From positions 1-33,347 of the forward strand of contig CAJYQC010000102.1 of the NCBI GenBank assembly GCA_913776885.1: a DNA stretch of 33,347 nt, written 5' to 3'. Position 1 is the first letter of the stretch. Every line of letters starts with the position of its first letter. The DNA comes from an uncultured Variovorax sp. Its GTDB lineage: Bacteria > Pseudomonadota > Gammaproteobacteria > Burkholderiales > Burkholderiaceae_C. Of this stretch, positions 1-17,109 are shown piece by piece. The notes beneath the pieces are model-generated. The model saw only the letters and a program-made list of their open reading frames with translations. It was not told the DNA's origin and did no database searches. A program made the position numbers and the translations under genes.

Positions 1-2370
1 CCCGCCCTCCCCCAGGGGGGGAGGGAGCGAACCCCGGTTCAATTCGGCCAGCACCGTCTCCGGCGTGAAAGGCGGCGAGCGGAACCGCACGCCCGTCGCA
101 TCGAAGATCGCATTCGCGATCGCCGCCGTGCCCGGCACCGAAGACGACTCGCCCGCGCCCAGCGAAGGCTCGCCGGGCCGCGGCATGTGCATCACCTCGA
201 TCACCGGCACTTCGCGGAAGTTGATGATCGGGTAGCTGCCCCACTCGCGGCTCGCGACCACGCCGGAAGGCAGCACGCCGGGCAGCTGCGCACCCGTCGC
301 CGCGCCTTGCTGTTGCTGCTGCTTCTGCGGCGCGAACTCCACGCGCTCCTTCAGCGCACGGCTCGTCGTCTGGATCACGTTGCCGTGCACCTGATGCTCG
401 ACCCCCGCGGGGTTGATCATCAGGCCGGCGTCGTGCCCCACCACCACGCGGCGCACGTGCACCTCACCGGTCTTGCGGTTGACCTCCACATCGGCCACCC
501 ACGCAGCCCACGCAGCGCCGAAGCCCGGCCACTTGCTGTGGACGTAGCGCGCATAGGCGAAGCCCTGGCCGAAGAGGATGTCGCCGCCCTCGCCCAGTCC
601 ACCGTCGGCGTTCTCCTGCGGCCCGGTGCGCATGCGCCAGCCGGCCTTCTGCGCGGTGGCCTGAACGAGCTCGACGGCGCGCGGGTCCTGCAGGTGCCGC
701 AGCCTGAACTGCACCGGGTCGACGCCCGCCGCCGTCGCCAGTTCGTCGATGTACGACTCGTGCGCGAACGAGCTCGGCAGCGCCGACACGCCGCGCAGCC
801 AGGAGGCGCGAACGATCGGCGCCATGTCGTTGACCTTCACGCGCAGGTTGTCGTAGCTGTAGGGCGGACGCGCGGTGCGGTCGCCCATCTCGAAGGCCTG
901 CGCGACCGGCTCGATGGTGCGCGTGAGCAGCAGCGCGAGCGTTGGCGCGCCATTCGACGGATAGGAGGTCTCGAAGTCGTAGGCGGCGACGCTGCCGTCG
1001 GCCATGAGGCCGCCGTCGATCTCCATCAGCTGCGCGGCGCCCTTGGGCTCCCAGGCATGCTCCTGCTCGCGCGTGAGCTGCACGCGCACCGGTGCGCCCA
1101 CCGCGCGCGCGAGCAGCGCCGCGTCGGCGGCCACGTCGTCGGCGCCGTTGCGGCCGTAGCAGCCCGCGGCCTCCATGCGAACCACGTCGACCTGCACGTC
1201 CTCCACGCCCATGAGCCTGGCGAGATCGGCGCGCAGAACGTGCGGGTTCTGCGAGCCGGCCCAGCAGCGCAGCTGCATGCCGCTGCCGTCGGCGGGCTGC
1301 CATTCGGCCAGCGCGCACGACGGGCCGATCGACGCATGCATCTGGTAGGGCCACACATAGGTGCGGTGCATGGGCTGCGCGGCCGCTTCGATGGCGCCGT
1401 CGACGTCGCCTTCGTCGACCAGCAGCCGCTGTGTCGAGGGGTTGTCGCGCAGGGCCTGCGCGAGATCGCCGAGGTCGGGCATGCCGGGCCATGGCTTCCA
1501 CTTCACGCGCAGCTCGCGCAACGCCTGCTCGGCGTGCTCCTCGCGCTCGACCACGATGCCGACGAAGTCGCGGATGACCACCACCGCGCGGATGCCGGGG
1601 ATGTGTGCGATCGACGACTCGTCGACCGATTCCAGCGTGTTGCCGATGAAGTCGCCATGGTCCGCACCCGCGTACGGCGGGCGCACCACGCGGCCGTGGA
1701 GCATGCCGGGCACGCGCATGTCGTGCACGAAGACGAGTTCGCCCGCGAGCTTGGCCGGGATGTCGACGCGCGCCTGCCGCGTGCCGACCACGCGATAGTC
1801 GGCCGGGTCCTTGGGCCTGGCGTGCGGATCGAGCTTGAGCACGGTGCGCTGGCCCGCGACGAGGTCGGCGTAGCTGACATGCCGGTCAGGCGCCTCCGCA
1901 ACGCGCACCACGCCGCTGCGCACCTGCAGCGCGTCCTCGGTCACACCCAGGCGCTCGGCCGCACGCGCCAGCAGCCATGCGCGCGCCTGCGCCGCCGCAA
2001 GCCGCAGCGGCTGCGCATGGATCTGGATCGACGCGCTGGCGATCGTCGCGCCCTGGTTGGGCGCGCGCGCGGTGTCGCCGAGCATCACGCGCACGCAGGG
2101 CATGCCGAGATCGAGCTCCTCGGCCACGATCTGGCCGAGCGCCGTCTGGATGCCGGTGCCCAGGTCGACGTGCCCGTTGAGCGCGGATGCGCTGCCGTCG
2201 TCCCACACGGCGAGCAGCACCTCGTCGCCTTCGGCGGGGTTGCTGGCGATGAAGGCAGGCTGGCCCTTGGCCGGCGGCGGCGGTTTCGGCGCCTCGCGCA
2301 GCACCAGCAGCACGCCGGTGGCTGCAAGGAACTCGGCGCGCGTTCGAGGCAGGTCTGCGCGGCGCGTCAT
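1..2370 (-). CDS. Molybdopterin-binding large subunit of a nicotinate dehydrogenase-like hydroxylase (3' end outside window)
   Basis: This is the large Mo-cofactor subunit of a xanthine dehydrogenase-family hydroxylase, of the type that pairs with a small [2Fe-2S] subunit and has no FAD subunit, as in nicotinate dehydrogenase NicAB. The frame stays open for 790 codons from ATG 2370 to the window edge. Visible family features are the ELGTG-like stretch near residue 70 (HVDLGTGIQTALGQ), the GCYGRNGADD substrate/Mo loop, and a GAGES motif whose Glu741 matches the catalytic glutamate, followed by AAIANAIFDATG. No CxxCH haem motif is visible, unlike P. putida NicB, so a separate cytochrome or another acceptor is needed. 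The [2Fe-2S] partner lies upstream. Nicotinate as substrate is inferred from the downstream-pathway genes nearby; isoquinoline or aldehyde oxidation is the alternative. The C-terminal codons run through a GC-rich palindrome at 5-25. Confidence 0.85.
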   Translation of the reverse strand, partial: MTRRADLPRTRAEFLAATGVLLVLREAPKPPPPAKGQPAFIASNPAEGDEVLLAVWDDGSASALNGHVDLGTGIQTALGQIVAEELDLGMPCVRVMLGDTARAPNQGATIASASIQIHAQPLRLAAAQARAWLLARAAERLGVTEDALQVRSGVVRVAEAPDRHVSYADLVAGQRTVLKLDPHARPKDPADYRVVGTRQARVDIPAKLAGELVFVHDMRVPGMLHGRVVRPPYAGADHGDFIGNTLESVDESSIAHIPGIRAVVVIRDFVGIVVEREEHAEQALRELRVKWKPWPGMPDLGDLAQALRDNPSTQRLLVDEGDVDGAIEAAAQPMHRTYVWPYQMHASIGPSCALAEWQPADGSGMQLRCWAGSQNPHVLRADLARLMGVEDVQVDVVRMEAAGCYGRNGADDVAADAALLARAVGAPVRVQLTREQEHAWEPKGAAQLMEIDGGLMADGSVAAYDFETSYPSNGAPTLALLLTRTIEPVAQAFEMGDRTARPPYSYDNLRVKVNDMAPIVRASWLRGVSALPSSFAHESYIDELATAAGVDPVQFRLRHLQDPRAVELVQATAQKAGWRMRTGPQENADGGLGEGGDILFGQGFAYARYVHSKWPGFGAAWAAWVADVEVNRKTGEVHVRRVVVGHDAGLMINPAGVEHQVHGNVIQTTSRALKERVEFAPQKQQQQQGAATGAQLPGVLPSGVVASREWGSYPIINFREVPVIEVMHMPRPGEPSLGAGESSSVPGTAAIANAIFDATGVRFRSPPFTPETVLAELNRGSLPPPLGEGG
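5..25. repeat. Perfect 9-bp-stem palindrome inside the 3' end of the Mo-subunit gene
   Basis: CCCTCCCCC (5-13) is separated by three bases from GGGGGAGGG (17-25). The dyad lies past the conserved core of the Mo-subunit frame and encodes a Pro/Gly-rich tail. It looks like an intergenic hairpin that the reading frame has run into, but the stop codon is outside the window. Confidence 0.6.
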
Positions 2371-2377
2371 GTAATTC

Positions 2378-2500: not shown

Positions 2501-2506
2501 GGAGAC

Positions 2507-3007
2507 TCATGCGCTCGTCTCCTCGCGCATGCGCACCGCCGCGCGCTGCACCGCGTCGAGGATCTCGATGTGCGTGCCGCAGCGGCACAGGTTGCCCGAC
2601 AGCTCGCTGCGGATGCGCGCCTCGCTCGCATGCGGATCGCGTGCGAGCAGCGCAGCCGCCTGCATGACCATGCCGTTGAGGCAATAGCCGCACTGCGCGG
2701 CCTGCGCTTCTTCGAAGGCCGCCTGCACCGGATGCCAGCTGCCGCGCGAGCCCAGGCCTTCGAGCGTGGTGATGGCGCGCCCCGCCACGCCGTGCGCCGG
2801 AATCACGCAGGAGCGCGCGGCCACGCCGTCGACGTGCACGGTGCACGCGCCGCACTGCCCCAGCCCGCAGCCGTACTTGGGACCGTTCAGCCCCAGGTCG
2901 TTGCGCAGCAGGTGCAGCAGCGTCGCTTCGCGCGACACGCCCGCTATCGATTGCGCCCGGCCGTTGACCAGCAGGCGCAGCGGCTCAGCGCCGCAACTGG
3001 CCGTCAC
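2507..3007 (-). CDS. [2Fe-2S] small subunit of the nicotinate dehydrogenase-like hydroxylase
   Basis: This 166-aa protein passes electrons from the Mo centre through two [2Fe-2S] clusters. The plant-type N-terminal cluster ligands are C47, C52, C55 (in YGCGLGQCGAC) and C67. The C-terminal four-helix domain supplies C106, C109 (CGYC), C141 and C143 (CRC). Length and cysteine pattern match NicA/IorA/CoxS-type small subunits. The ATG at 3007 lies 23 bp inside the end of the upstream binding-protein gene, which suggests translational coupling. The partner Mo subunit starts 136 bp downstream beyond a palindromic element. No FAD subunit is present in the window, in keeping with the two-subunit class that donates to a cytochrome or quinone-linked acceptor. 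The substrate assignment is contextual. Confidence 0.9.
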   Translation of the reverse strand: MTASCGAEPLRLLVNGRAQSIAGVSREATLLHLLRNDLGLNGPKYGCGLGQCGACTVHVDGVAARSCVIPAHGVAGRAITTLEGLGSRGSWHPVQAAFEEAQAAQCGYCLNGMVMQAAALLARDPHASEARIRSELSGNLCRCGTHIEILDAVQRAAVRMREETSA

Positions 3008-4166
3008 GGGTGTACATCTCCAGATCGACGAAGTTTGAACCGTTGTGGTTCTTCGCGCTGTACTCGATGGGGAAGTCGCCGAAGCGCGTGCTGCCGATGC
3101 TCTCCAGGCCCGCGATGAAGCCGTCGCGCGTGAGCGACCTGCCCGCGCGGCGCAGTCCCTCGACCATGACGCGCGCGACGATGTAGCCCTCCAGCGCGGT
3201 GTAGCTGTCGATCTTCTCGCCGAACTCGGCGCGGTCGCGCTGGTAGTCGGCCACGATGGGCACGCGCTGCGCCTGCGGCGGCGGCACGATGCTGGCCGTG
3301 ACCAGGCCCGCGAGCTTTCCGTCGAGCCGCTTGGCAGACCCTGCCGCGTCGGTGATGCCGACCGACAGCGTATACAGCGGCGAGCCCACGGCGCTGGCGC
3401 GATAGTCGCGCATGAACACTTCCACCATGCGCCCGGCCATGATCATCACGACCGCGCCCGGCTTGGCGTCTGCGAGGCCCGAGACCACCTGCTTCGCGTC
3501 CTCGGCCGCGATGGCCAGCGGGAAGGTCTTCACCACCTTCACCTTGTAGTCGGCCGCCAGCTCCTCGCAGGTGGCGAGGTTCGACTTGCCGAAGGCGCTG
3601 TCCTGGTAGACCACCGCGATCGACTGGATGCCGATGGTCGAGAGGTGGCTGATGATCTTGCGCAGCTCCAGGTCGTAGCCCGCGCGCACGTGGAACAGGT
3701 AGCGGTTGACCTTGGTGCGGAACGACGTGGTGCCCACCAGCGGCGCGAACATCGGCACGCCGGCCTTCTCCGCGAGCGGCATCGCGGCAGCGAGATTGCC
3801 GGTGGCCACGTAGCCGGTGAGCGCGAAGACCTTGTCCTCGTCGATCAGCTTGGCGGTGTTGACGGCCGTCTTCGCGGGGTCGTAGGCGTCGTCGTAGGTG
3901 ACCAGCTCGATCTTGCGGCCGTTCACGCCACCCGCCTTGTTGACACGGTCGAAGTAGAGCTTGATGCCCGCGCGGTAGTCGATGCCGAAGTCCTTGGCCG
4001 GCCCGCTGAACACGGCCGACTGGCCGATGCGGATGGTGGTGTCGGTCACGCCGGCGGTGGCGTTGTCCGCGCGTGCCGGCCGCAGCAGGCCGGGAAACAG
4101 GCCGGGGCCGAGCGCCAGGGCGGCGGCGCTCGCCACCAGGGCACGCCTTGAGATCGAGGGCTTCAT
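2985..4166 (-). CDS. Liv-type ABC transporter periplasmic substrate-binding protein (second copy)
   Basis: This 393-aa protein belongs to the LivJ/Peripla_BP_6 family, which binds branched-chain amino acids, amides or small aromatic acids in the periplasm. The N-terminus is a cleavable export signal with a twin arginine (SRRALVAS) and a hydrophobic run ending near ARA-D. The mature start TIRIGQSAVFSGPAKDFG and the later NKAGGVNGRKIELVTYDD are family hallmarks. It has no permease of its own here and probably shares the LivHMGF complex encoded at 5119-8712. Its 3' end overlaps the [2Fe-2S] subunit gene by 23 bp, and nicotinamidase lies 55 bp upstream. That placement among nicotinate genes suggests a pyridine carboxylate or its amide as ligand, which is an inference. 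Confidence 0.9.
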   Translation of the reverse strand: MKPSISRRALVASAAALALGPGLFPGLLRPARADNATAGVTDTTIRIGQSAVFSGPAKDFGIDYRAGIKLYFDRVNKAGGVNGRKIELVTYDDAYDPAKTAVNTAKLIDEDKVFALTGYVATGNLAAAMPLAEKAGVPMFAPLVGTTSFRTKVNRYLFHVRAGYDLELRKIISHLSTIGIQSIAVVYQDSAFGKSNLATCEELAADYKVKVVKTFPLAIAAEDAKQVVSGLADAKPGAVVMIMAGRMVEVFMRDYRASAVGSPLYTLSVGITDAAGSAKRLDGKLAGLVTASIVPPPQAQRVPIVADYQRDRAEFGEKIDSYTALEGYIVARVMVEGLRRAGRSLTRDGFIAGLESIGSTRFGDFPIEYSAKNHNGSNFVDLEMYTRDGQLRR

Positions 4167-4221: not shown

Positions 4222-4947
4222 TCAGGCGGTCTGGATGTCTGCCGACTGGATGCGCTTGACGCCCTTGGCCGTCATCTGCTTCCAGGCCGCGGCCAGCGAG
4301 CCGTTGAGGTCGATGCCGCGCGTGGCGTCCTCGATCACGTAGGCCTCGAAGCCGGCCTTGCGCGCATCCATCGCGGTCCAGGCCACGCAGAAGTCGGTGG
4401 CCAGGCCGGTGACGAACACGGTCTTGATGCCGCGCGCCTTCAGGTAGCCGGCCAGGCCCGTGGCCGTCTTGTGGTCGGCTTCCTCGAAGGCCGAGTAGCT
4501 GTCCATGTCCTTGTGGAAGCCCTTTCGGATGACGAGCTGCGCGGTGGGCACCTTCAGGTCCTTGCCAAGCGCGGCGTCGTCGGTGCCCTGCACGCAGTGG
4601 TCGGGCCACAGCACCTGCGTGCCGTAGCTGAGCTTGGTGGTCTCGAAGGGCTTCTTGCCGCTGTAGGTGCTGGCGAAAGATGAATGGCCCGCCGTGTGCC
4701 AGTCCTGCGTGACCACGATGTTCTCGAAGGCCGGCGCGAGCGCATTGATCACCGGGATCACTTCGTTGCCGCCCTTCACCGCGAGCGTGCCGCCGTCGAG
4801 AAAACAGTTCTGCACGTCGACCACGATCAGCGCCGCCCTGGCGCCGGGCTTGATCTTGCCGGCCGCGAAGGCGCTGAAGCCGAGACTGCCGAGGCCACCG
4901 GCCAGCCCGAGGGCAGCGGCGGATTTCACGAGGGTTCTGCGATGCAT
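4222..4947 (-). CDS. pncA: Exported nicotinamidase (isochorismatase-fold hydrolase)
   Basis: This enzyme hydrolyses nicotinamide to nicotinate and ammonia. The chosen start is ATG 4947 (MHRRTLVKSA...), which has AGGAG 8 bp upstream; the frame can be read further 5', but that extension is repeat-derived. Residues 1-30 form a Tat-like signal (RRTLVK followed by a hydrophobic stretch ending AFAAG), so the enzyme is probably periplasmic, whereas typical PncA is cytoplasmic. The catalytic triad is visible as D44 (VVDVQ), K142 (RKGFHKD) and C187 (TDFCV). The metal-site pattern DWHTAGH supplies D82, H84 and H88. It is 241 aa, slightly longer than cytoplasmic PncA because of the signal. It is separated from livF by a hairpin repeat and lies 55 bp before the second binding-protein gene. 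It supplies the entry step for nicotinamide. Confidence 0.88.
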   Translation of the reverse strand: MHRRTLVKSAAALGLAGGLGSLGFSAFAAGKIKPGARAALIVVDVQNCFLDGGTLAVKGGNEVIPVINALAPAFENIVVTQDWHTAGHSSFASTYSGKKPFETTKLSYGTQVLWPDHCVQGTDDAALGKDLKVPTAQLVIRKGFHKDMDSYSAFEEADHKTATGLAGYLKARGIKTVFVTGLATDFCVAWTAMDARKAGFEAYVIEDATRGIDLNGSLAAAWKQMTAKGVKRIQSADIQTA

Positions 4948-5006
4948 GGCGTGGACTCCTGGTAGGACTGGAAGGGGAACTTGAATCAGGACACGAGAAA
5001 CTTTCC

Positions 5007-5111
5007 AGGAACACCGCGGAACCGGCTTTGCCGGCCCGTCGGTGTCGCCCCCGGCACGAGGGTCGGCGAAGCGGCACGGCATGCGCAAAGTGCGCGATGA
5101 CCGGGGGCGTG
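5007..5111. repeat. ~100-bp hairpin repeat, copy A (after livF)
   Basis: This is a diverged copy of the repeat at 28102-28200. It has AGGAACACCGCGGAACCGG, the CCGGCTTTGCCGG hairpin, CCCCCGG, and the GCGAAGCGGCAC...GTGCGCGA segment, ending next to the livF stop codon at 5119. It separates livF from the nicotinamidase gene. Confidence 0.75.
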
Positions 5112-5118: not shown

Positions 5119-5853
5119 CTAGACGCTGAGGTAGGCGCGGCGAACTTCGTCGTTGGCCGCGAGCTCGGCCATCGTGGCGTGGTAGCGGATCTGCCCCTTC
5201 TCGAGCACGTACGCGCGGTCGGACACCAGTTCGGCGAAGTGCATGTTCTGCTCCGACAGCAGGATGCTCACGCCCTGCGCCTTGAGCTCCAGGATCATGT
5301 TGGCCATCTGTTCGACGATCACCGGCGCCACGCCTTCGGAAGGTTCGTCGAGCAGCACGAGGTAGGGGTTGCCCATGAGCGTGCGCGCGACCGTGAGCAT
5401 CTGCTGCTCGCCGCCGCTCATGCGCCCGCCTGGGCGGTTCGGCATCTCGCCGAGGTTGGGGAAGAGCTTGAACAGGCGCTCCGGCGTCCACAGCGGCGCG
5501 TCGCTGCCGTCGGCCCAGCGGCGCGGAGCCTGCTTGCCGACTTCGAGGTTCTCCATCACCGTGAGGTCGGTGAACACCCGGCGGTCTTCGGGCACGAAGC
5601 CCAGGCCCAGGCGCGCCGCGTGGTGCGGCTCGCTCTTCGAGATGTCATGGCCGAGGAAGCGCACGGCGCCGCGGCGCTTGGTGAGCATGCCGATCAGCGC
5701 CTTGAGCGTGGTCGACTTGCCGGCGCCGTTGCGGCCCATGAGCGCGACCACTTCGCCGCGGCGCACTTCGAGATCGACGTCGTAGAGGATCTGCGCGGCG
5801 CCGTACCAGGCGCACAGGGCCTTGGCCTGCAGGAGGGGTTCTTGGGTGTTCAT
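5119..5853 (-). CDS. livF: Liv-type ABC transporter ATP-binding protein LivF
   Basis: This is one of the two cytoplasmic ATPases that power the Liv-type importer. The 244-aa sequence shows Walker A (GRNGAGKST), the ABC signature (MSGGEQQM), Walker B (LVLLDEPSEG) and the LivF-typical SEQNMHFA switch region. The start ATG 5853 opens MNTQEPLLQAKALCAWYGAAQ with only a weak upstream purine tract. It follows livG after a 142-bp gap that contains a large palindrome (5878-5986), unlike the tight livHM-livG junction, so its expression may be uncoupled. The gene ends at TAG 5119 next to a hairpin repeat. The substrate cannot be read from an ATPase; context favours nicotinate, nicotinamide or related compounds. 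Confidence 0.93.
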   Translation of the reverse strand: MNTQEPLLQAKALCAWYGAAQILYDVDLEVRRGEVVALMGRNGAGKSTTLKALIGMLTKRRGAVRFLGHDISKSEPHHAARLGLGFVPEDRRVFTDLTVMENLEVGKQAPRRWADGSDAPLWTPERLFKLFPNLGEMPNRPGGRMSGGEQQMLTVARTLMGNPYLVLLDEPSEGVAPVIVEQMANMILELKAQGVSILLSEQNMHFAELVSDRAYVLEKGQIRYHATMAELAANDEVRRAYLSV

Positions 5854-5995: not shown

Positions 5996-6775
5996 TCATT
6001 CGACCTCCGCAGTCTTCTTCTCGAAGGTCTTGCCGGTGCCGAAGTACACCTCCTGCACCTTCGGATGGTCGCGGATCTCGAGAGGCTTGCCCTGCGCGAT
6101 GAGGCGTCCGCGCGCGAGCACGATCATGCGGTCGGCGTACGCGAACACCACGTCCATGCTGTGCTCGGTGAAGAGCACGGCCATGCCGCGCTGGATGACG
6201 AGCTCCTTGGTCAGCGCCATGAGCGAGTTGCGCTCCTTGGGCGCCATGCCGGCGGTCGGCTCGTCCATCAGCAGCAGCTTGGGCGAGTTGGCCATCGCGA
6301 TGGCGAGCTCGACGCGCTTCACGTCGCCGTAGGCCAGCACGCTGCAGGGCCGGTCGGCCTGCGGCTTCATGCCGACCTGGTCGAGCAGGGCCAGCGCCTC
6401 GTCGCGCTTGTGGTCGGCGGCGCGGCGCCAGGTGGAGAAGAGCTTGCGGTCATGCGACAGCAGCGCCATCTGCACGTTCTCGACCACGGTGAGCGAGGCG
6501 AAGGTTTCGGCGATCTGGAAGGTGCGGCCCACGCCCATGCGCCAGATCTCGCGCGGCCTGCGGCCCACGAGTTCCTGGCCGTCGAGCGTGATGGAGCCCT
6601 GGTCCGCCTTCAACTGGCCGTTGACCATGTTGAAGGTGGTGGACTTGCCGGCGCCGTTGGGGCCGATGAGCGCGAGCAGTTCGCCGGGCGGCAGCTCGAA
6701 GCTGATGCCGTCCACGGCCTTTACGCCGCCGAAGGACTTGCCGAGGTTCTCTACCTTGAGGAGCGTTCCGGTCAT
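5996..6775 (-). CDS. livG: Liv-type ABC transporter ATP-binding protein LivG
   Basis: This is the second ATPase of the importer, 259 aa from ATG 6775 (MTGTLLKVENLGKSFGG). Visible motifs are Walker A (GPNGAGKST), a LivG-style signature LAYGDVKR in place of the canonical LSGGQ, Walker B (LLLMDEPTAGM) and the H-loop region FTEHSMDVVFAYADR. Longer upstream readings of this frame are antisense-like translation of livHM and are rejected. The start overlaps the livHM stop in an ATGA junction (6772-6775), so the two are translationally coupled. The C-terminal extension (GTGKTFEKKTAEVE) is common in Burkholderiales LivG proteins. Confidence 0.93.
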   Translation of the reverse strand: MTGTLLKVENLGKSFGGVKAVDGISFELPPGELLALIGPNGAGKSTTFNMVNGQLKADQGSITLDGQELVGRRPREIWRMGVGRTFQIAETFASLTVVENVQMALLSHDRKLFSTWRRAADHKRDEALALLDQVGMKPQADRPCSVLAYGDVKRVELAIAMANSPKLLLMDEPTAGMAPKERNSLMALTKELVIQRGMAVLFTEHSMDVVFAYADRMIVLARGRLIAQGKPLEIRDHPKVQEVYFGTGKTFEKKTAEVE

Positions 6776-8843: not shown

Positions 8844-10049
8844 TCAGTCCGCAGGGCGCATCTTCTTCACTTCGTCGTCGGATGGCTGGAACTTCGCGCC
8901 GTCGAGGTAGACGTAGTCGACCATCACGCCCTTGCCGCCGTCGTTCTTGGTCTTGCCCACGTACGCGCCCATGGTGGACTGGTTGTCCTGCGCGCGGTAG
9001 CTGATCTTGCCGAAGGGCGTGTCGACCTGCAGGCCCTTGAAGGCGGCCACGAGCTTCTCGGTGTCGGTGCCGCCGGCCTTCTTGATGCCGGCCGCGATCG
9101 AGTGGATGGCGCTGTAGCCGACCACCGAGCCCAGGCGCGGGTAGTCCTTGAACTTGGCCTGATAGGCATCGAGGAAGGCCTTGTGCTCGGGCGTCTTCAC
9201 GCCGTTCCAGGGATAGCCGGTGACGATCCAGCCGTTGGGCGCCTCGTCCTTCAGCGGGTCGAGGTACTCGGGCTCGCCGGTCAGCACGCTCACCACCTCG
9301 CGGTCCTTGAAGAGGCCGCGCGTGTTGCCTTCGCGCACGAACTTGGAGAGGTCGGCGCCGAAGAGCACGTTGAAGATGGCGTCGGGCTTGGCATCGGCCA
9401 GGGCCTGCACCACGCTGCCCGAATCGACCTTGCCCAGCGGCGGCGCCTGCTCGGCGACGAACTCGACGTCGGGCTGCGCAGCCTTCAGCAGCGTCTTGAA
9501 GGTGGCGACCGACGACTGGCCGTATTCGTAGTTGGGGTACACGAGCGCCCAGCGCTTCTTCTTGAGCTTGGCGGCCTCGGGCACCAGCATCGCGACCTGC
9601 ATGTAAGTAGAGGGGCGCAGGCGGTAGGTGTATTTGTTGCCGTTGCTCCAGACGATCTTGTCGGTGAGCGGCTCGGCGGCGAGATAGAAGAACTTCTTCT
9701 GCTTGGCGAAGTCGGTCAGCGCCAAGCCGGTGTTCGACAGGAAGGCGCCGGCCAGCACGTCGATCTTCTCGCGCGAGATGAGCTCCTCGGCCACGCGCAC
9801 CGCGTCGCCGGGGTTGGCGTTGTCGTCGCGGCTGATGAGCTCGATCTTCTTGCCGTTGACGCCGCCCTTGGCGTTGATCTCGTCGACCGCGAGCTCCATG
9901 CCCTTCTTGTAGGGCTCGAGGAAGGCGGGCTGCGCCTTGTAGCTGTTGATTTCACCGATCTTGATCACGCCCTGCGCGTGCGCGGGAACGAGGGCCGAAG
10001 CCAGCGTGACGACGGAGGCGGCGCAGAAGACATGGCGCAGTGGATTCAT
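8844..10049 (-). CDS. Liv-type ABC transporter periplasmic substrate-binding protein (first copy)
   Basis: This 401-aa LivJ-like solute-binding protein begins with a Sec-type signal (MNPLRHVFCAASVVTLASALVPAHA-Q). The mature protein starts GVIKIGEINSYKAQPAF and includes NAKGGVNGKKIELISRDDN, the usual type I periplasmic-binding-protein hinge region. ATG 10049 has AGGAG 9 bp upstream. It is the cognate receptor of the fused LivHM permease encoded immediately downstream. It is only distantly like the second binding protein at 2985-4166, so the transporter may accept two ligands. The ligand is unknown; position between the reductive nicotinate genes and the importer favours a pyridine compound. 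Confidence 0.92.
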   Translation of the reverse strand: MNPLRHVFCAASVVTLASALVPAHAQGVIKIGEINSYKAQPAFLEPYKKGMELAVDEINAKGGVNGKKIELISRDDNANPGDAVRVAEELISREKIDVLAGAFLSNTGLALTDFAKQKKFFYLAAEPLTDKIVWSNGNKYTYRLRPSTYMQVAMLVPEAAKLKKKRWALVYPNYEYGQSSVATFKTLLKAAQPDVEFVAEQAPPLGKVDSGSVVQALADAKPDAIFNVLFGADLSKFVREGNTRGLFKDREVVSVLTGEPEYLDPLKDEAPNGWIVTGYPWNGVKTPEHKAFLDAYQAKFKDYPRLGSVVGYSAIHSIAAGIKKAGGTDTEKLVAAFKGLQVDTPFGKISYRAQDNQSTMGAYVGKTKNDGGKGVMVDYVYLDGAKFQPSDDEVKKMRPAD

Positions 10050-10091
10050 CGAGAAGCTCCTGGAAGGGACAAGAAAAACGGGGTCTTTGCG

Positions 10092-10187
10092 GGAAACACC
10101 GCGGAACCGGCTTTGCCGGGCCGCTGGTGTTGCCCCCCCGGCGAGGGGGTTGGCGAAGCGACACGCAGTGCGCGAAGACTGGGGGTG
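10092..10187. repeat. Hairpin repeat, copy C (after the first DUF1185 gene)
   Basis: A near-complete copy: AACACCGCGGAACCGGCTTT, the CCGGCTTTGCCGG hairpin, a C-rich/G-rich pair around GGCGA, TTGGCGAAGCGACACGCAG and GCGCGAAGACTGGGGG. It ends 3 bp before the stop codon of the DUF1185 gene at 10191. Confidence 0.78.
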
Positions 10188-10190
10188 TAC

Positions 10191-10775
10191 TCATCTGAGG
10201 CCGTCCTCGCCCTTGATCTCGGAGACCTGCAGGCCGCCGATGCGCGGCAGCGGACGGCCGCTGTCGGTGACGGCCACGGCCACCACGATCTCGTTGGCGC
10301 GCGGCGCGTCGCTCACGCGGGCTTCCACCGCGTCGAAATGGCTGCGCACGAAGGCGGCGTCCTTGTGGCCGAGCGGCACGTCGATGGCGGTGCCCAGCGT
10401 GCCCTGCTTCTTGGCCGAGGGCACGAGCGCCGCGCCCTTCTCCACCGCCACGCGCAGCGGCGCGCCCAGCTTGGGATGCAGGATCGCGGCAGCATGCTCG
10501 AGCTCGCCGCGCTCGCCCACGATGGCGGCCTTGCCGTAGCTCTGTGCCTGGCCGGGCTCGATGCCCAGCGCCTTCACGGCCTTCTGGCCCAGCAGCGCAC
10601 CGAGTTCCTCGCCGATGGCGATGAGCTCGTCGAGGTTCTCGCTGTAGCGGCCCGCATAAGGGTTCTCGATCACGGCGATGGCGACGGCGCGGCGCGTGGG
10701 TGGCGTGATGTCCTTGCCCATTTCGCGGCGGGTTTCATCGACCTGTACTACGAGCTTGCGGATGTTGGCGGTCAT
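10191..10775 (-). CDS. DUF1185 / 'amino acid synthesis' family protein, paralogue 1
   Basis: This 194-aa soluble protein belongs to PF06684, a family named for amino acid synthesis without firm biochemical support. It shares with the neighbouring 213-aa gene the blocks NPYAGRY, YGKAAIVGERGELEH, a VPSAKKQG..GTAIDVPL stretch and RSHFDAVEARV...ANEIVVAVAV. There is no signal peptide or membrane segment. AAGGAAC lies before ATG 10775. It is 36 bp downstream of its paralogue, so the two are probably cotranscribed and may form a hetero-oligomer. A hairpin repeat follows the stop codon. Its role in the pathway is unknown; an isomerase, lyase or hydrolase acting on a ring-opened intermediate would fit the context, but the sequence does not show it. 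Confidence 0.82.
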   Translation of the reverse strand: MTANIRKLVVQVDETRREMGKDITPPTRRAVAIAVIENPYAGRYSENLDELIAIGEELGALLGQKAVKALGIEPGQAQSYGKAAIVGERGELEHAAAILHPKLGAPLRVAVEKGAALVPSAKKQGTLGTAIDVPLGHKDAAFVRSHFDAVEARVSDAPRANEIVVAVAVTDSGRPLPRIGGLQVSEIKGEDGLR

Positions 10776-10811: not shown

Positions 10812-11453
10812 TCAGCGCAGGCCATCCCATTTGCTGATGTCTTTGGCGAGCAGGCCACCGACGCGTGCGTGGACGCGATACCCGGTGCTCATCGCGAGGA
10901 TGAAGACGATCTCGTCGGCCGCCGGCGCGCCGGGCACGCGCACCTCGATGGCGTCGAACTGGCCGCGCACGTAGCTGGCGTTGATGTTGGTCAGCGGCAC
11001 GTCGAGAGCCGCGCCGGGCGGGCCGACCTTCTTGGTGGAAGGCACGATCGAGAGCGCATTGCCGGGCTGGCCGGTCTTCTCTTCGGCCTTGCCCGCGGTG
11101 TAGGCGGCGCGGCTGCCTTTCCAGCCGAGCAGTTCGCGCATTGCGTAGCCGCCGGGCACGTGCCACAACGCGCCGTGCTCGAGCTCGCCGTCGGCGCCGA
11201 CGATAGCGCCCTTGCCGTAGGTGGCGATCTGCTCGAGCGGCACGTCCATGGCGGCATGCAGGCGGTGCGCCATGTCGACACCCACCGGGTCGAGCAGCGC
11301 CATCATCGGCAGGATGTCGGGCTCGTAGCGGCCGGCGAACGGATTGGTCAGCACCGCGCCGATGGCACCACGCACCAGCGGGGTGTCGGCACGCGGTCCG
11401 AACTCGTGGTGAATGTGCTCGACCTGGGTGAAGACGCGGCGTATTTCGATCAT
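10812..11453 (-). CDS. DUF1185 / 'amino acid synthesis' family protein, paralogue 2
   Basis: This 213-aa protein is the second PF06684 member. Conserved blocks shared with paralogue 1 are NPFAGRY (about residue 37), YGKGAIVGADGELEHGA, VPSTKKVGPPGAALDVPL and RGQFDAIEVRV..APAADEIVF. It differs by an insertion around residues 100-125 (MRELLGWKGSRAAYTAGK). No signal or membrane segment is seen. It lies 21 bp after the UPF0280 gene and 36 bp before paralogue 1, in an operon headed by 6-hydroxynicotinate reductase. Function is not established. Confidence 0.82.
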   Translation of the reverse strand: MIEIRRVFTQVEHIHHEFGPRADTPLVRGAIGAVLTNPFAGRYEPDILPMMALLDPVGVDMAHRLHAAMDVPLEQIATYGKGAIVGADGELEHGALWHVPGGYAMRELLGWKGSRAAYTAGKAEEKTGQPGNALSIVPSTKKVGPPGAALDVPLTNINASYVRGQFDAIEVRVPGAPAADEIVFILAMSTGYRVHARVGGLLAKDISKWDGLR

Positions 11454-11474: not shown

Positions 11475-12392
11475 TTAAGCAAATACTGAACCAACTGATT
11501 TCGGCAGCTCTGTGTCGAGCGCCTTCGAGCATAAGGGCTCGACGAGTTTCCACTGCCCCTGGCAAACGAGTAGAGCAGCCCAGACGAGCCCTCCTTTTTG
11601 CAGGACCTTGGCGCACACCACGCCCGTATCGAGTGCGCTGCGCACCTGCGCGGGGGCCAGCTCGGGCACGTCGACGGTGACGAGCGTGTCGCCCAGGTCG
11701 CTGTCGTCCTTGCACTCGTTCGCTCGGCGGCGCGCGATGGCCTCGTCGTCCACGTCGACGGCGTTGGCGATCACTGTCGCGGCGGCATCGGCCTGCGCTG
11801 CGGTGGCGGCCAGCACCGTCACGCTGTCGGCGATGCCCAGCGAGAAGCTGCGCCCGCGCCAGCCGCTGGTGGCGACGCCGCGCACGGGCTGGTCGGCGCG
11901 CAGCTCGAACTGGCCGTCGGTGGTGAGGATGCCGCCTTCGCCGGCAAGATGGCCGCGCAGGTCGAAGCGCGCGATGTCGGCGAACACGCCCACGCGCGCG
12001 GACTGCCCGGGCGCGAGATGCAGCGCGATGTCGCCGCCGTTGTTGATCCACGCGCGTTCGATGCCGGGGCGTTCGTAGAAGGCGATGAGCTCCTGCGCCA
12101 CCGAGCCGGCCACTGCCGCCATCGGCGTGATGAACATCGGCGAGAACGCGGCGCAGGCGTCCCACATGCGGCGCGCCACCACGTTGCGCGGGCGCATCCT
12201 GTCGGTGACGGGCAGGCGCAGCAGCGGCAGCTCGCGCACCAGTTCGTCGAGTACGTGGACGAACCGTGCCCAGGCCGCGTCGTGCGCGGCGGCCACGGCG
12301 TAAGGGTCGCCATGCGCCTCGGCAACGATGTCGATCGGGCCGTGGTTGAAGTGCCAGCGGCTCTTGTCGAGCGCACTGCGTTGGGCGGACAT
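11475..12392 (-). CDS. UPF0280 / ApbE-like protein next to 6-hydroxynicotinate reductase
   Basis: This 305-aa protein starts at ATG 12392, two bases after the reductase stop codon; the frame reads farther upstream only as a shadow of the reductase. Three blocks resemble the FMN transferase ApbE: NNGGD (117-121), ATSG (174-177) and ADSVTV followed by AADAAAT-type sequence (188-206). ApbE attaches FMN covalently to target proteins in flavin redox complexes; UPF0280 proteins share its general fold but lack an assigned activity, as far as I know. The E. barkeri 6-hydroxynicotinate reductase is reported to carry covalently bound flavin, so a maturation role here is attractive. No export signal is present, so it would act in the cytoplasm. 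The identity is clear at family level; the function is an inference. Confidence 0.82.
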   Translation of the reverse strand: MSAQRSALDKSRWHFNHGPIDIVAEAHGDPYAVAAAHDAAWARFVHVLDELVRELPLLRLPVTDRMRPRNVVARRMWDACAAFSPMFITPMAAVAGSVAQELIAFYERPGIERAWINNGGDIALHLAPGQSARVGVFADIARFDLRGHLAGEGGILTTDGQFELRADQPVRGVATSGWRGRSFSLGIADSVTVLAATAAQADAAATVIANAVDVDDEAIARRRANECKDDSDLGDTLVTVDVPELAPAQVRSALDTGVVCAKVLQKGGLVWAALLVCQGQWKLVEPLCSKALDTELPKSVGSVFA

Positions 12393-12394: not shown

Positions 12395-14008
12395 TCAGCC
12401 CAGCATCGGGGCGTGGCCGAGCGGCCACGGATTGGCGTCGTCCACCGCGAGCCATTGGCGCGCGAGCGGTGCGCCGTCTTCCTGCCATGCACCACGCGCG
12501 AGCGCCTGTTCGAGCGGGAAGATGTGTTCGACGTGGCCGCCGAGCGCCTCGTAGTCGTCGCGCCGCATGCTGAACTCGATGGGTGCGACGATGGCAGGCG
12601 TGGGCACGGTGCCGAAGCTGTTGTCGGGCATGCGCATGACGTCGGCCATCACGGTGATGCCGCCGCCTGGCCACACATAGGCCGGCGCGCCGCCGCAGGT
12701 GACGTTGACCAGCGCGCGCTTGATGGCGCGCGTGAGCAGCACCGGGTTCTCGGTGACGCCCGCGCGCAGGCTGCCGCCCGCACCGCCGAGGAACAGCACG
12801 GTGCACAGCGAAGGCTCGCAGTTCTCGCCGATGCGATCGACGATGCGCTTCACCTCGGGCGGCATCGGCTGCTCGACGGGCTTGAGCGCGTCGTCGAGCA
12901 CGTACCACTGCGCATGCTCGCCGGTGGTCGACGTCATGAGCAGGCGCAGGCCGGGGCGCGCGACGCCCTCTTCCCAGCCTTCGATGATCGCGAGCGGATC
13001 GGCGATGTCGGTGCCGCCCCAGCCGTTGCCCGGGTTCGCCACCTGGAAGTAGCGCCCCGGCGTGGACTTGCGCCCCAGCATCTGGATGCCCGAGGGCGCC
13101 ATGTCGAGGCAGCGGCCGGCCTGGTGCTCGGTGAGCACGCCGGTGATGTGGTCGTCGACCACCACCACCTCGTCGGCCACGCCGGCGAACTGCCGCGCGA
13201 AGATGCCGACCGCGGCCGAGCCGCAGCCCACGCGCATGCGCTGCTCTTCCACGCCGTTGACGATGGGCGCCTTGCCGGCCTGGATGACGAGGGTGGAGCC
13301 GCCGTCGATGGTGCACTCCACCGCCTTCTTGTTGCCCAGCAGCTGCATCAGCTCGGCCGTCATGCGGCCTTCCTTCTTGCTGCCGCCGGTGAGGTGGTGC
13401 ACGCCGCCGAGCGAGAGCATCTGCGAGCCGTACTCCGCCGTGGTCACGTGGCCCACGACCTCGCCGCGGTAGCGCACGTTGGCCTGCTCGGGGCCGAGGA
13501 AGCGGTCGGTGTCGATCTTCACCTTGAAGCTGCAGTAGCTGAAGATGCCTTCGGTGACGACGGTGACCATGTCCACGCCCTGGGCCTTGGAGGCCACGAT
13601 GAAGGGGGCGGGCTTGTAGTCGGGGTAGGTGGTGGAGGAGCCCACGCCGGTGACGAAGACTTCGTCGGCATGAAGCAGGTCGCCATTCCAGTCGGGGGCG
13701 GCATCGGCAGCTTCGGCGCCAGGGCGGTCGAAGGGCACCAGCGCTGGCTTCTCGCTCTCCACCGTGCGGCGCAGCAGCACCACGGGATCGACGCGCACCA
13801 GCACGCCCTCCTTGTTGGCGTAGCGGTCGCACGCGCCGGTGCGGCCGTCGGATATCTGGCACAGCACGGGGCAGGCGTTGCATTCGACCTTGGCCGAGCT
13901 CATGCGCTCGTTGCGAAGCGGCGCCTTGCCGAAGGCGCTGCTGCCGGCCTCGGCCACGACGGGCATGTCCATGCCGGGGAGGCCGTCTGTCTTGGTGTGT
14001 TCTGTCAT
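12395..14008 (-). CDS. hnr: 6-hydroxynicotinate reductase
   Basis: This enzyme reduces 6-hydroxynicotinate to 1,4,5,6-tetrahydro-6-oxonicotinate, the dearomatising step of reductive nicotinate breakdown. The 537-aa protein begins at ATG 14008 (MTEHTKTDGLPG); an upstream in-frame start at 14143 would add a Cys/Arg-rich leader that overlaps the operator-like region and is unlikely. An N-terminal Fe-S motif gives C43, C46, C50 and C60 (VECNACPVLC...GAC). Further cysteines occur in GENCEPSLC and NVTCGGAP. Gly-rich segments (GGAGGSLRAG, WPGGGITVM) are compatible with flavin binding. The E. barkeri enzyme is reported to contain covalent flavin plus one [2Fe-2S] and two [4Fe-4S] clusters. It heads a minus-strand operon with the ApbE-like and DUF1185 genes, opposite fpr, whose product could help supply reduced ferredoxin. 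Confidence 0.88.
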   Translation of the reverse strand: MTEHTKTDGLPGMDMPVVAEAGSSAFGKAPLRNERMSSAKVECNACPVLCQISDGRTGACDRYANKEGVLVRVDPVVLLRRTVESEKPALVPFDRPGAEAADAAPDWNGDLLHADEVFVTGVGSSTTYPDYKPAPFIVASKAQGVDMVTVVTEGIFSYCSFKVKIDTDRFLGPEQANVRYRGEVVGHVTTAEYGSQMLSLGGVHHLTGGSKKEGRMTAELMQLLGNKKAVECTIDGGSTLVIQAGKAPIVNGVEEQRMRVGCGSAAVGIFARQFAGVADEVVVVDDHITGVLTEHQAGRCLDMAPSGIQMLGRKSTPGRYFQVANPGNGWGGTDIADPLAIIEGWEEGVARPGLRLLMTSTTGEHAQWYVLDDALKPVEQPMPPEVKRIVDRIGENCEPSLCTVLFLGGAGGSLRAGVTENPVLLTRAIKRALVNVTCGGAPAYVWPGGGITVMADVMRMPDNSFGTVPTPAIVAPIEFSMRRDDYEALGGHVEHIFPLEQALARGAWQEDGAPLARQWLAVDDANPWPLGHAPMLG

Positions 14009-14112: not shown

Positions 14113-14152
14113 GTGTAGCATTCCCTACACTTTCATGTTGCATTCACTACAT
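14113..14152. promoter_or_regulatory. Two tandem operator-like dyads in the hnr-fpr divergent region
   Basis: Site 1 is GTGTAG-CATTCC-CTACAC (14113-14130), a perfect 6-bp inverted repeat with a 6-bp spacer. Site 2 is ATGTTG-CATTCA-CTACAT (14135-14152), matching 5 of 6 positions. The centres are 22 bp apart, about two helical turns, and a half-site ATGTAG follows at 14162-14167. The dyads lie 105-144 bp before the reductase start and 180-219 bp before fpr. On the minus strand TTGACC (14163-14158) could be a -35 element just upstream of the dyads. The TetR protein encoded at 15206-15955 is the obvious candidate ligand. The rest of 14009-14331 shows no gene that I can support. Confidence 0.6.
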
Positions 14153-14331
14153 CAAAGGTCAATGTAGCAAACGGGCCCGATGCTTGCAATGGTGTTTTCT
14201 CGCGGTGTTCACCGGGGTTTCTCCGACAAACGACAATGGAGGGTTCGGAGCCGGCCGGCGGCTTGCGCCCCAAAGGCGTGCACGCAGGCTCAGCCAATCT
14301 CTCCTGTTACCAACCAACTCTTGAGTTTCGT

Positions 14332-15105
14332 ATGAGTGCATTCAGCGAAGAACGCGTCCTGAGCGTCCACCACTGGACCGATCGCCTGTTCACCTTCACC
14401 ACCACGCGCGACCCGGCGCTGCGCTTCTCGAACGGTCATTTCACGATGATCGGCCTGAAGGTCAACAACAAGCCGCTGCTGCGCGCCTACAGCATCGTGA
14501 GCCCGAACTACGAGGAGCATCTCGAGTTCCTGAGCATCAAGGTGGAAGACGGCCCGCTGACCTCGAAGCTGCAGCACATCCAGGTGGGCGACACCATCAT
14601 CGTGGGCCGCAAGCCCACCGGCACGCTGCTGATCGACTACACGCTGCCGGGCAAGCGCCTGTACCTGTTCGGCACCGGCACCGGCCTCGCACCGTTCATG
14701 AGCATCATCCGCGACCCGGAGACCTACGAGAAGTACGAACAGGTCATCCTGGTGCACGGCGTGCGCCAGGTCGACGAGCTGGCCTACCACGACCTCGTGA
14801 CCGACCACCTGCCCAAGCACGAATTCCTCGGCGAGATGATCGAGAAGCAGCTGCTGTACTACCCCACGGTCACGCGCGAGGAGTTCCGCAACCAGGGCCG
14901 CATCACCGACCTGATCGAGAGCAACAAGCTCACCGACGACCTGGGCCTGCCGCCGCTGAACGTCGAGGAAGACCGCGTCATGCTGTGCGGCAGCCCCGGC
15001 CTGCTGGTGGACCTGAAGCACATCCTGGAAAAGCGCGGCTTCAAGGAAGGCAACACCAGCACGCCCGGCGACTACGTGGTCGAGCGCGCCTTCGCAGAGA
15101 AGTGA
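14332..15105 (+). CDS. fpr: Ferredoxin--NADP(+) reductase
   Basis: This 257-aa flavoprotein exchanges electrons between NADPH and ferredoxin or flavodoxin in the cytoplasm. The start is ATG 14332 (MSAFSEERVLSVHHWTDRLF); a 32-codon upstream extension is low-complexity and lacks family similarity. The FAD-binding motif RAYSIVSP and the NADP-binding motif GTGTGLAPF are present, and the C-terminus is the bacterial-type VERAFAEK. Length is typical of subclass I bacterial Fpr. It is transcribed away from 6-hydroxynicotinate reductase and shares its upstream region. fpr is often a housekeeping or oxidative-stress gene, so the neighbour relation may be old synteny, but the reductase needs a low-potential donor and Fpr plus ferredoxin could provide it. 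Confidence 0.95.
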   Translation: MSAFSEERVLSVHHWTDRLFTFTTTRDPALRFSNGHFTMIGLKVNNKPLLRAYSIVSPNYEEHLEFLSIKVEDGPLTSKLQHIQVGDTIIVGRKPTGTLLIDYTLPGKRLYLFGTGTGLAPFMSIIRDPETYEKYEQVILVHGVRQVDELAYHDLVTDHLPKHEFLGEMIEKQLLYYPTVTREEFRNQGRITDLIESNKLTDDLGLPPLNVEEDRVMLCGSPGLLVDLKHILEKRGFKEGNTSTPGDYVVERAFAEK

Positions 15106-15199: not shown

Positions 15200-15205
15200 C
15201 CTGTA

Positions 15206-15955
15206 ATGGAACGCAAGGCTGCCGTCACCAAGCCGCAGCGCCGCACGGGCGTACGCGAGGCGGCCGCCCAGGCCACGCGCGACAGCATCCTGAAGGCCGC
15301 GACCAAGGTGTTCGCCAAGTACGGCTACGACGGCGGCAGCGTGGAGAAGATCTCCAAGGCCGCCAAGTCGTACGACCGGATGATCTACTACTACTTCGGC
15401 AGCAAGGAAGGCCTCTTCATCGCGGTGCTCGAAGGCATCTACCATCGCATGGACGACGCCGAGGCGGCCATCGCACTCGACACCTCGCGGCCGGTGGACG
15501 CGCTCACCGAAGTCATCCGCTTCGTGCTGGGCTACTACCGCAAGAACCCCGAGTTCGTCACGCTGCTCAATACCGAGAACCTGCACAAGGGCCGGCACAT
15601 TTCGAAGTCGCTGCGCGCGCGCGAGTACTCGTCGCGCGCGGTGGCGATCATCGCGGAGATCCTGGCGAGCGGCGCCGCGCAAGGCCTGTTCCGCAGCGAT
15701 CTGGTGGCGCGCGACATCTATCTGCTGATCGCCTCCACCGGCTACTTCTACACCTCCAACCGGCACACGCTCACCGCCTTCCTCGGCGAACCGCTGGAGT
15801 CGCCCGAGGCGATCGCGCACTGGGAAGACTTCGTGATCGAGACCGTGCTGCGCACCGTGCGCGCGGACGAAGTGCAGGACAACACACCACCCCACGAGGA
15901 AAGAACGAAATGGCAGAAATCGCAAGCGGCGGCAAGTCGGGCAAGGTCGTCATAA
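15206..15955 (+). CDS. TetR-family transcriptional regulator of the nicotinate island
   Basis: This 249-aa protein has an N-terminal TetR helix-turn-helix at about residues 25-70 (DSILKAATKVFAKYGYDGGSV...SYDRMIYYYFGSKEGLF) and a ligand-binding C-terminal half. The ATG at 15206 has no strong Shine-Dalgarno sequence. The last 46 bp overlap the enamidase start region, so the two genes are probably cotranscribed and translationally linked, which implies local regulation. The likely targets are the dyads at 14113-14152, a suggestion from proximity and symmetry. The C-terminal tail (about 20 residues, Lys/Arg/Ser/Ala-rich) lies in the overlap and is probably dispensable. A pathway intermediate such as 6-hydroxynicotinate is the likely effector, but this cannot be read from the sequence. 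Confidence 0.92.
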   Translation: MERKAAVTKPQRRTGVREAAAQATRDSILKAATKVFAKYGYDGGSVEKISKAAKSYDRMIYYYFGSKEGLFIAVLEGIYHRMDDAEAAIALDTSRPVDALTEVIRFVLGYYRKNPEFVTLLNTENLHKGRHISKSLRAREYSSRAVAIIAEILASGAAQGLFRSDLVARDIYLLIASTGYFYTSNRHTLTAFLGEPLESPEAIAHWEDFVIETVLRTVRADEVQDNTPPHEERTKWQKSQAAASRARSS

Positions 15956-17109
15956 AGAACATCGGGCTGCTGCTCTCGGGCGACATTGACAAGCCCATCC
16001 TAGATGCCGACACCATCGTCGTGAACGACGGGCTGATCGTCGCGGTCGGCAAGGAGAAAGACTGCGACCTCGAAGGCGCCGTCACCGTCATCGACGCGAA
16101 GAAGACCTGCGTTGCGCCCGGCCTGATCGACAGCCACGTGCACCCGGTGTTCGGCGACTGGACGCCGCGCCAGGGACAGCTCGGCTGGATCGACTCCACC
16201 ATGCACGGCGGCGTGACCACCATGATCTCCGCCGGCGAGGTGCACCTGCCCGGCCGCCCCAAGGACATCGTGGGCCTGAAGGCGCTGGCCATCACCGCGC
16301 AGCGCGCATTCGACAACTTCCGCCCCGGCGGCGTGAAAGTGCTGGCGGGCGCGCCCGTCATCGAGAAGGGCATGGTCGAGAGCGATTTCAAGGAGCTCGC
16401 AGAGGCCGGCGTGGGCCTGCTCGGCGAGGTGGGCCTGGGCTCGGTCAAGGCCGGCTACGAGGCCAAGGAGATGGTGGCCTGGGCGCGCAAGTACGGCATC
16501 CAGAGCACCATCCACACGGGCGGCCCCTCGATCCCGGGCTCGGGCCTGATCGACAAGGACGTGGTGCTCGAGGCCGACGCCGACGTCATCGGCCACATCA
16601 ACGGCGGCCACACATCTCTGCCCGAGGCCCACGTGTGCGAGCTGTGCGAGAAGAGCTCCCGCGCCATCGAGATCGTGCACAACGGCAACGAGAAGGTCGC
16701 CATCGCCGCGGCGAAGGCCGCGTTGGAGCTCAAGTGCCCGCACCGCGTGATCCTCGGCACCGACGGCCCCGCGGGCTCGGGCGTTCAGCCGCTGGGCATC
16801 CTGCGCATGGTGGCGATGCTGTCGTCCATCGCGAACATCCCGCCCGAGCTGGTGTTCTGCTTCGCGACGGGCAACACCGCGAAGATCCGCAAGCTCAACT
16901 GCGGCCTCGTCGAGGTGGGCCGCGCCGCCGACTTCGTCTTCATGGACCGCGCACAGCATTCGCCTGCACCGGGCCTGCTCGAGAGCGTGCAGCTCGGCGA
17001 CATCCCGGGCGTGGGCATGGTGATGATTGACGGCATCGTGCGCTGCGGCCGCAGCCGCAACACGCCGCCTGCGACCGAGATCCCGGTGGTCGTCTCGGGC
17101 GCGCACTGA
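15910..17109 (+). CDS. ena: Enamidase (6-oxo-1,4,5,6-tetrahydronicotinate amidohydrolase)
   Basis: This 399-aa amidohydrolase hydrolyses 1,4,5,6-tetrahydro-6-oxonicotinate to 2-formylglutarate and ammonia. It closely resembles the E. barkeri enamidase as I recall it: shared runs include HGGVTTMISAG, PGRPKD, GEVGLG, HTGG-SIPGS, HINGG and PLGILR. Expected binuclear metal ligands are H76 and H78 (DSHVHP), E173 (GEVGLG), H202 (IHTGG), H229 (GHINGG) and D285 (GTDGPAG). ATG 15910 has AGGAAAG upstream. The gene begins inside the end of the TetR gene. Downstream lies a convergent, unrelated operon. Among generic amidohydrolases (dihydroorotase, imidazolonepropionase) none shares these runs, so the specific name is well supported. 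Confidence 0.92.
   Translation: MAEIASGGKSGKVVIKNIGLLLSGDIDKPILDADTIVVNDGLIVAVGKEKDCDLEGAVTVIDAKKTCVAPGLIDSHVHPVFGDWTPRQGQLGWIDSTMHGGVTTMISAGEVHLPGRPKDIVGLKALAITAQRAFDNFRPGGVKVLAGAPVIEKGMVESDFKELAEAGVGLLGEVGLGSVKAGYEAKEMVAWARKYGIQSTIHTGGPSIPGSGLIDKDVVLEADADVIGHINGGHTSLPEAHVCELCEKSSRAIEIVHNGNEKVAIAAAKAALELKCPHRVILGTDGPAGSGVQPLGILRMVAMLSSIANIPPELVFCFATGNTAKIRKLNCGLVEVGRAADFVFMDRAQHSPAPGLLESVQLGDIPGVGMVMIDGIVRCGRSRNTPPATEIPVVVSGAH

Follow-up and report, generated by a model that had tools for sequence, protein, structure and literature searches.

The degradation of nicotinate by reduction of the pyridine ring is known from Eubacterium barkeri and Azorhizobium caulinodans, for which the chemistry of the route has been described (PMC9304392). 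In 2012, BLAST searches that started from the E. barkeri genes revealed a nicotinate cluster in Azorhizobium and Bradyrhizobiaceae (PMC3511419). Strain SG-6C, which carries this type of cluster, mineralises nicotinate and 6-hydroxynicotinate, the link to the cluster having been made by genome search (PMC3511419). In this study, we analysed the whole of contig C102 (33,347 bases, hereafter the window) from the draft genome of an uncultured Variovorax sp. (5.48 Mb, 625 contigs, 89% complete). The left 17.1 kb of the window form an island of two divergent gene rows which, judged from sequence, very probably equips a Variovorax-type bacterium to take up nicotinamide and nicotinate and to degrade them by the rare reductive route. 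The leftward row starts at 14008 and comprises, in this order, the genes for 6-hydroxynicotinate reductase (HNR), a UPF0280 protein, the PF06684 proteins AA1 and AA2, the binding protein BP2, a fused permease, two ATPases, a nicotinamidase, the binding protein BP1, and the [2Fe-2S] and Mo large subunits of a hydroxylase. The rightward row starts at 14332 and holds a ferredoxin-NADP reductase (Fpr), a TetR regulator and an enamidase. The features are, by coordinate:

1-2510 (called 1-2370; exact start unsure), minus strand, large Mo-hydroxylase subunit, NicB-like (Pfam MoCoBD_2 and MoCoBD_1)
2507-3007, minus strand, [2Fe-2S] subunit of the Mo-hydroxylase (Fer2_2 94 bits, Fer2 31 bits)
2985-4166, minus strand, extra periplasmic binding protein BP1, dispensable (Peripla_BP_6 205 bits; present in 13/51 of the full-flank loci described below)
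4222-4947 (longest frame to 5088), minus strand, nicotinamidase with a twin-arginine-type leader (NF008623 181.9 bits, cut-off 174)
5119-5853, minus strand, ABC transporter ATPase, LivF type (ABC_tran 105 bits)
5996-6775, minus strand, ABC transporter ATPase, LivG type (ABC_tran 114 bits, and BCA_ABC_TP_C)
6772-8712, minus strand, fused permease, LivHM type (BPD_transp_2 in two stretches, 242 bits)
8844-10049, minus strand, substrate-binding protein BP2 (Peripla_BP_6 249 bits)
10191-10775, minus strand, PF06684 gene AA2, ELEHAAAILHP type (AA_synth 240 bits, cut-off 27)
10812-11453, minus strand, PF06684 gene AA1, ELEHGALWH type (212 bits, cut-off 27)
11475-12392, minus strand, ApbE-like UPF0280 protein (PF02424 20.9 bits, below the cut-off of 25.6; 2O34 E = 3e-4; relatives annotated UPF0280)
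12395-14008, minus strand, HNR, 537 aa, start codon ATG at 14008 (by annotated relative)
14147-14168, no strand, candidate operator, inverted repeat GCTACATT-N8-ATGTAG, within the 323 bases that separate HNR from Fpr
14332-15105, plus strand, ferredoxin-NADP reductase Fpr (PRK10926 140 bits, below the cut-off of 390)
15206-15955, plus strand, TetR regulator, probable local regulator (TetR_N and TetR_C_29)
15910-17109, plus strand, enamidase (2VUN, the E. barkeri enamidase, E = 3.2e-110, residues 11-390 of 399)

A sequence-only reading of the window had proposed a reductive route through HNR and enamidase. This proposal is supported by the nearly end-to-end match of the enamidase to 2VUN, beside the HNR gene; the next-best match in the PDB reaches only E = 9e-6. 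Searched against Pfam and NCBIfam (E<=0.001) and the PDB (E<=10), HNR itself had no match. Its identity comes from relatives: a Comamonadaceae plasmid gene 87% identical to it, in a cluster of like gene order that lacks nicotinamidase and BP1, is annotated as 6-hydroxynicotinate reductase, and further relatives are annotated likewise. Cysteines 43, 46, 50, 60, 159, 262 and 397 of HNR are conserved in two alignments, A4 (51/51 rows) and A3 (17 or 18 rows out of 18). The HNR gene of genome G165 consists of two overlapping frames. The nicotinamidase, Mo/[2Fe-2S] hydroxylase, HNR, enamidase, importer and TetR genes listed by the sequence-only reading were all recovered at their positions, HNR through its annotated relative and the others by profile or structure-database matches, and what it had called an exported amidase is the nicotinamidase, whose N-terminus, MHRRTLVKSAAALGL, looks by eye like a putative twin-arginine-type leader. 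The host had been taken for Variovorax-like, in agreement with an HNR that is 99% identical to those of V. gossypii and V. guangxiensis, among the matches listed. The UPF0280 gene, the two PF06684 genes and Fpr were absent from that earlier list.

The genes and the families to which they belong, their arrangement and the way they occur together are observed, and from these the following sequence of steps can be proposed. By homology, the exported nicotinamidase would release nicotinate, the Liv-type ABC importer would take it up, and the Mo/[2Fe-2S] hydroxylase with its triple haem-c tail would convert it to 6-hydroxynicotinate. HNR would then reduce the ring to 1,4,5,6-tetrahydro-6-oxonicotinate, and the enamidase would open it to 2-formylglutarate and ammonia, again as predicted from homologues. 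Gene association suggests that HNR is probably fed by NADPH via Fpr and a ferredoxin and aided by UPF0280, that the two PF06684 proteins may take part in the formyl or enamine stage on the path to glutarate, and that TetR may control the divergent promoter. The domains of the Mo/[2Fe-2S] genes are those of the nicotinate 6-hydroxylase type, with nicotinate as predicted substrate, and nicotinate appears the best substrate here because both nicotinamidase and enamidase are present. In relatives, three CxxCH motifs follow the Mo domains of the large subunit (9/9 examined), Cytochrom_C and Cytochrome_CBB3 domains were found in the one relative scanned, and a hydrophobic stretch precedes the CxxCH motifs (the strongest of the protein in 3/4 checked). 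Since these haem-c motifs lie after a hydrophobic stretch, the hydroxylation step probably hands its electrons to the respiratory chain, the destination to which gene association also points. Such a transfer was reportedly seen for the Azorhizobium hydroxylase by Kitts in 1992.

When compared with described systems, the island resembles the cluster of SG-6C and A. caulinodans in its HNR, ring-opening and hydroxylase genes, which cover the first three steps, and in its ABC transporter and a pair of conserved genes of unknown function (PMC3511419). What it adds to the Azorhizobium/Bradyrhizobiaceae type are the nicotinamidase, one more PF06684 gene, TetR and the extra binding protein. With the nicotinate fermentation cluster of E. 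barkeri it shares the enamidase and the HNR step. The E. barkeri hydroxylase is said to be a selenium-dependent enzyme of four subunits, and the pathway there to continue via 2-hydroxymethylglutarate and B12 chemistry (Alhapel and colleagues, 2006); in contrast, the hydroxylase encoded here is haem-c-tailed, and later genes of the E. barkeri type were not recognised in the island. The maleamate (nic) route of Pseudomonas putida begins with a NicB-like Mo subunit with haem-c domains, a likeness to the first step here. Among the genes of the island, to which this negative is confined, we noticed no nicC, nicX, nicD or nicF. Four loci from other classes of the phylum (L157, L158, L159 and L174; L and G numbers denote our loci and genomes) combine HNR, UPF0280, PF06684, importer, enamidase, Fpr and a haem-tailed hydroxylase, in a gene order unlike that of the island.

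HNR, UPF0280, PF06684 and enamidase were counted in 398 genomes of the phylum, and a family sample comprised 150 genomes; the searches scored the best first-look candidates (three per genome for HNR, six for UPF0280, four for enamidase), so that further copies may be missed. HNR was present in 24/150 genomes of the family and in 32/398 of the phylum (15/212 genera), own genome included in both. A scan with one genome per species yielded at least 588 confirmed HNR stretches, 80 of which were kept and fetched as named loci, all from Betaproteobacteria or 'uncultured bacterium' by record title. Neighbour counts come from the 51 of these 80 with full flanks. Genes were placed by tblastn with identity cuts of our own choice, and the window-trained gene caller misses genes elsewhere (e.g. 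in G012). UPF0280 and AA2 accompany HNR in all 51 loci, enamidase, the [2Fe-2S] subunit and the permease in 49 each, TetR (at 35% identity or more) and LivG in 47, LivF and AA1 in 46, the Mo subunit in at least 45 and BP2 in 38; the hydroxylase counts are lower bounds because genes more than 10 kb from HNR were beyond reach. Most Comamonadaceae loci keep the gene order of the island, and those of Paraburkholderia are arranged differently. Over stretches of 36-40 kb read in ten relatives, the genes outside the island mostly differ, with few common to pairs, while the core genes recur. The recurrence of UPF0280, AA2 and enamidase with HNR marks the grouping as more than chance.

The island module can also reside on a plasmid. 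An HNR relative at E<=1e-20 is carried by 26 plasmid records, and the 159-kb plasmid CP099606.1 (L251), from a leaf Comamonadaceae strain, holds the island in the same order without nicotinamidase and BP1. The view that such an island is poorly described found no support in its strong sense, as the cluster was reported in 2012 (PMC3511419) and HNR is frequent in the family; the island is therefore less new than claimed. The system is of a nicotinate-route type already known from other bacteria, and the associations with UPF0280 and PF06684 are new here. Among the matches listed in a search limited to open-licence literature, we found no paper on the reductive route in Variovorax or Comamonadaceae. 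Altogether, our results give the ring-reducing nicotinate route a firm place in Burkholderiales, where it forms a compact module.

The association of HNR with UPF0280 is strict. UPF0280 (E<=1e-5) was found in 32/32 genomes with HNR and in 0/366 of the others, with one match each, on the same contig as HNR and 794-1755 bases from it by lower coordinates; the probabilities computed for such co-occurrences take no account of kinship among the genomes. Like the ApbE flavin transferases, the protein has a PF02424 match, if a weak one, and several motifs resembling the FAD site: the stretches NNGGD, ATSG and AD.AAT are conserved in 38 rows and presumably correspond to that site in ApbE. Unlike them, it scores below the Pfam cut-off, and neither DPxTG nor DPTG occurs in any of the 38 rows, so that it lacks the loop of the ApbE catalytic histidine, for which we assume the motif HIIDPxTG. 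In the 10 rows inspected, ATSG lies 12 residues from the next motif. The catalytic role of His257 in ApbE is documented (PMC5655446, PMC12052999), as is the target motif D-x-x-[S/T]-G-A-[S/T] (PMC12052999), which was found in 0/18 HNR rows; a looser pattern matched one row (DHLTGGS). Thus, the label of a plain ApbE flavin transferase was rejected on the PF02424 score, the DPxTG loop and the target motif.

Because UPF0280 fails these tests, we propose from its association that it is a dedicated partner of HNR, perhaps flavin-related, rather than an ApbE enzyme. Two roles can be considered. Quite possibly, UPF0280 serves HNR as a structural or flavin-carrying subunit instead of as a maturation enzyme, which would fit the strict pairing, the closeness of the genes, and the missing loop and target motif; against such a subunit stand the conserved stretches of the putative FAD site and the reported purification of E. 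barkeri Hnr, from which no second subunit is known. E. barkeri HNR reportedly has a covalent flavin (Alhapel and colleagues, 2006), and we suggest, tentatively, that UPF0280 may load the flavin into HNR. The strict pairing makes it testable how HNR obtains its flavin, and makes the function of PF06684 testable as well.

PF06684 occurs in 59/398 genomes, including 31 of the 32 with HNR, and lies at most 5 kb from HNR in all 31 shared genomes (39/86 matches overall). Enamidase (E<=1e-60) was found in 20/398 genomes, 18 of them with HNR, and PF06684 is present in 20/20; in the two without HNR, the enamidase-like match is weaker (E about 1e-108) and a PF06684 gene directly adjoins it. In G270 and G341, an AA1-AA2 pair stands with enamidase on a different contig from HNR, and a further PF06684 gene lies near HNR. 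No PF06684 gene was found in G286 (L163), and L162 and L169 have one each, only below the identity cut. The 'amino acid synthesis' label of PF06684 (DUF1185) derives from a chorismate-mutase-like fold and branched-chain-type transporter neighbours (PMC2954203), and the predicted model of AA1 has the fold of 3BYQ. Solved structures of the family exist; we found no proven catalytic role for it. The label is doubtful because of the proximity to HNR and the presence in every enamidase genome, and the branched-chain-type transporter here belongs to the nicotinate cluster.

A different function is suggested by analogy. Trigonelline is methylated nicotinate. TgnF, a PF06684 homologue according to the wording of PMC7913881, stimulates succinate-semialdehyde oxidation in Acinetobacter, and the TgnF paper concerns trigonelline, by its title in the reference list (PMC7913881). 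In A. caulinodans, the reduced ring continues via glutarate (PMC3511419). On this analogy, the PF06684 pair might act near 2-formylglutarate, between it and glutarate semialdehyde, an assignment that we make with reserve; that it is a decarboxylase seems doubtful. No such stimulating effect could be shown for the PF06684 protein studied in PMC7913881 itself, which tells against an easy answer. The statement in the sequence-only reading that steps beyond 2-formylglutarate are not visible holds insofar as none was recognised in the island, and may be wrong insofar as the PF06684 pair is a candidate. It is decidedly unlikely that both proposals hold together in their full form, UPF0280 being a non-canonical flavin loader specific to HNR and the PF06684 pair converting 2-formylglutarate, or the enamine, to glutarate semialdehyde. 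If they did, PF06684 would be a family of formyl-acid chemistry in heterocycle and aromatic catabolism, not of amino acid synthesis.

Alternatively, the pair could work on the substrate or product of HNR, for instance by changing the tautomer, rather than once the ring is open. As this would predict, 13 of the 14 HNR genomes that lack enamidase have PF06684 near HNR. Yet PF06684 genes also adjoin enamidase or enamidase-like genes away from or without HNR (L224, L246, L247) and sit in clusters showing neither gene (L213, L215, L219), which makes an action on HNR compounds rather unlikely. In L215, PF06684 is clustered with an alpha/beta hydrolase, an aldehyde dehydrogenase and a flavin reductase. 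The third PF06684 gene of the own genome (L213; contig C52, 3171-3770) lies in a probable aromatic catabolic cluster, next to a FAD monooxygenase (Pfam) and, by sequence appearance, aldehyde dehydrogenases, an alpha/beta hydrolase and a VOC protein.

Several points weigh against reading the island as a nicotinamide and nicotinate system. The identity of HNR was judged through relatives and their annotation and is a prediction; the loop missing from UPF0280 has been described above. In the 51 full-flank loci, nicotinamidase could be placed in just 24 and Fpr in just 33. As no second close copy of Fpr was found in the own draft genome, the gene may be housekeeping; among the ten widely read relatives, it lies inside the island in eight (as sole copy in five, with a second copy elsewhere in three) and outside it in two, with one copy elsewhere. 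Within the island, the only part of the genome covered here, no gene for the steps after 2-formylglutarate was recognised. Finally, enamidase is missing at E<=1e-60 from 14/32 HNR genomes, and some HNR loci carry hydantoinase-type genes in its place. HNR thus serves other routes as well, and HNR alone was rejected as proof of nicotinate use. Hydantoinase A and B genes stand beside HNR in L162 (Pfam), a hydantoinase-A-like gene is seen by sequence appearance in L169, and in L253, a Pleomorphomonas plasmid, the annotation names acetophenone carboxylase subunits, which we take to be hydantoinase-like. In a tree of 31 HNR rows, which left out G420, G165 and G465, the enamidase label needs four changes; together with the hydantoinase-type loci, this indicates an HNR module wider than nicotinate. 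As a separate observation, L162 (7397-14888), L169 (9225-19013) and L253 (8983-15855) combine HNR, UPF0280, PF06684-type and hydantoinase-type genes with no enamidase, probably as a second heterocycle route.

The island could, then, apply the same chemistry to another pyridine, such as a substituted nicotinate or 6-chloronicotinate, with nicotinate as a minor substrate. The HNR clusters with hydantoinase-type genes (L162 by Pfam, plasmid L253 by annotation) and those with differently built Mo subunits (L156, L164) are consistent with this, and in SG-6C 6-chloronicotinate enters the same route once it has been dechlorinated hydrolytically (PMC3511419). Against another pyridine, however, the island contains a nicotinamidase above its curated cut-off and an enamidase matching the E. 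barkeri enzyme over nearly its full length, so that we regard this alternative as improbable. That the island is a broken remnant, its hydroxylase gene ending at the window edge, is very improbable: the Mo subunit gene does run past the left end of the contig after about 790 codons, but its remainder lies at the start of contig C26 (residues 785-1234 of the protein of a relative match C26:51-1403), and the close relative G122 has an unbroken gene of 1238 aa.

Returning to the nicotinate island, the inverted repeat at 14147-14168 is a candidate site for TetR, whose binding there is a guess. The repeat has one match in the window and zero in 100 shuffles, is exact in 32/80 named loci, and lies inside a conserved block of a 31-sequence alignment. 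A further copy of GCTACAC is found close to it.

To the right of the island lie apparently unrelated genes (Pfam) for a GtrA-like protein, methionine synthase, a lipase with its chaperone and a LysR protein and, farther right, histidine-degradation genes judged by sequence appearance. Methionine synthase is apparently split into two parts about 5 kb apart (20426-23182 and 28203-29255, the second judged by eye); the genes in between include those for the lipase and its chaperone, a BTP protein and LysR. In addition, an intergenic repeat family of about 54-58 bases has 5-6 copies in the window, at three spots between island genes (5004-5097, 8779-8832 and 10089-10184) and as three in tandem at 27903-28212.

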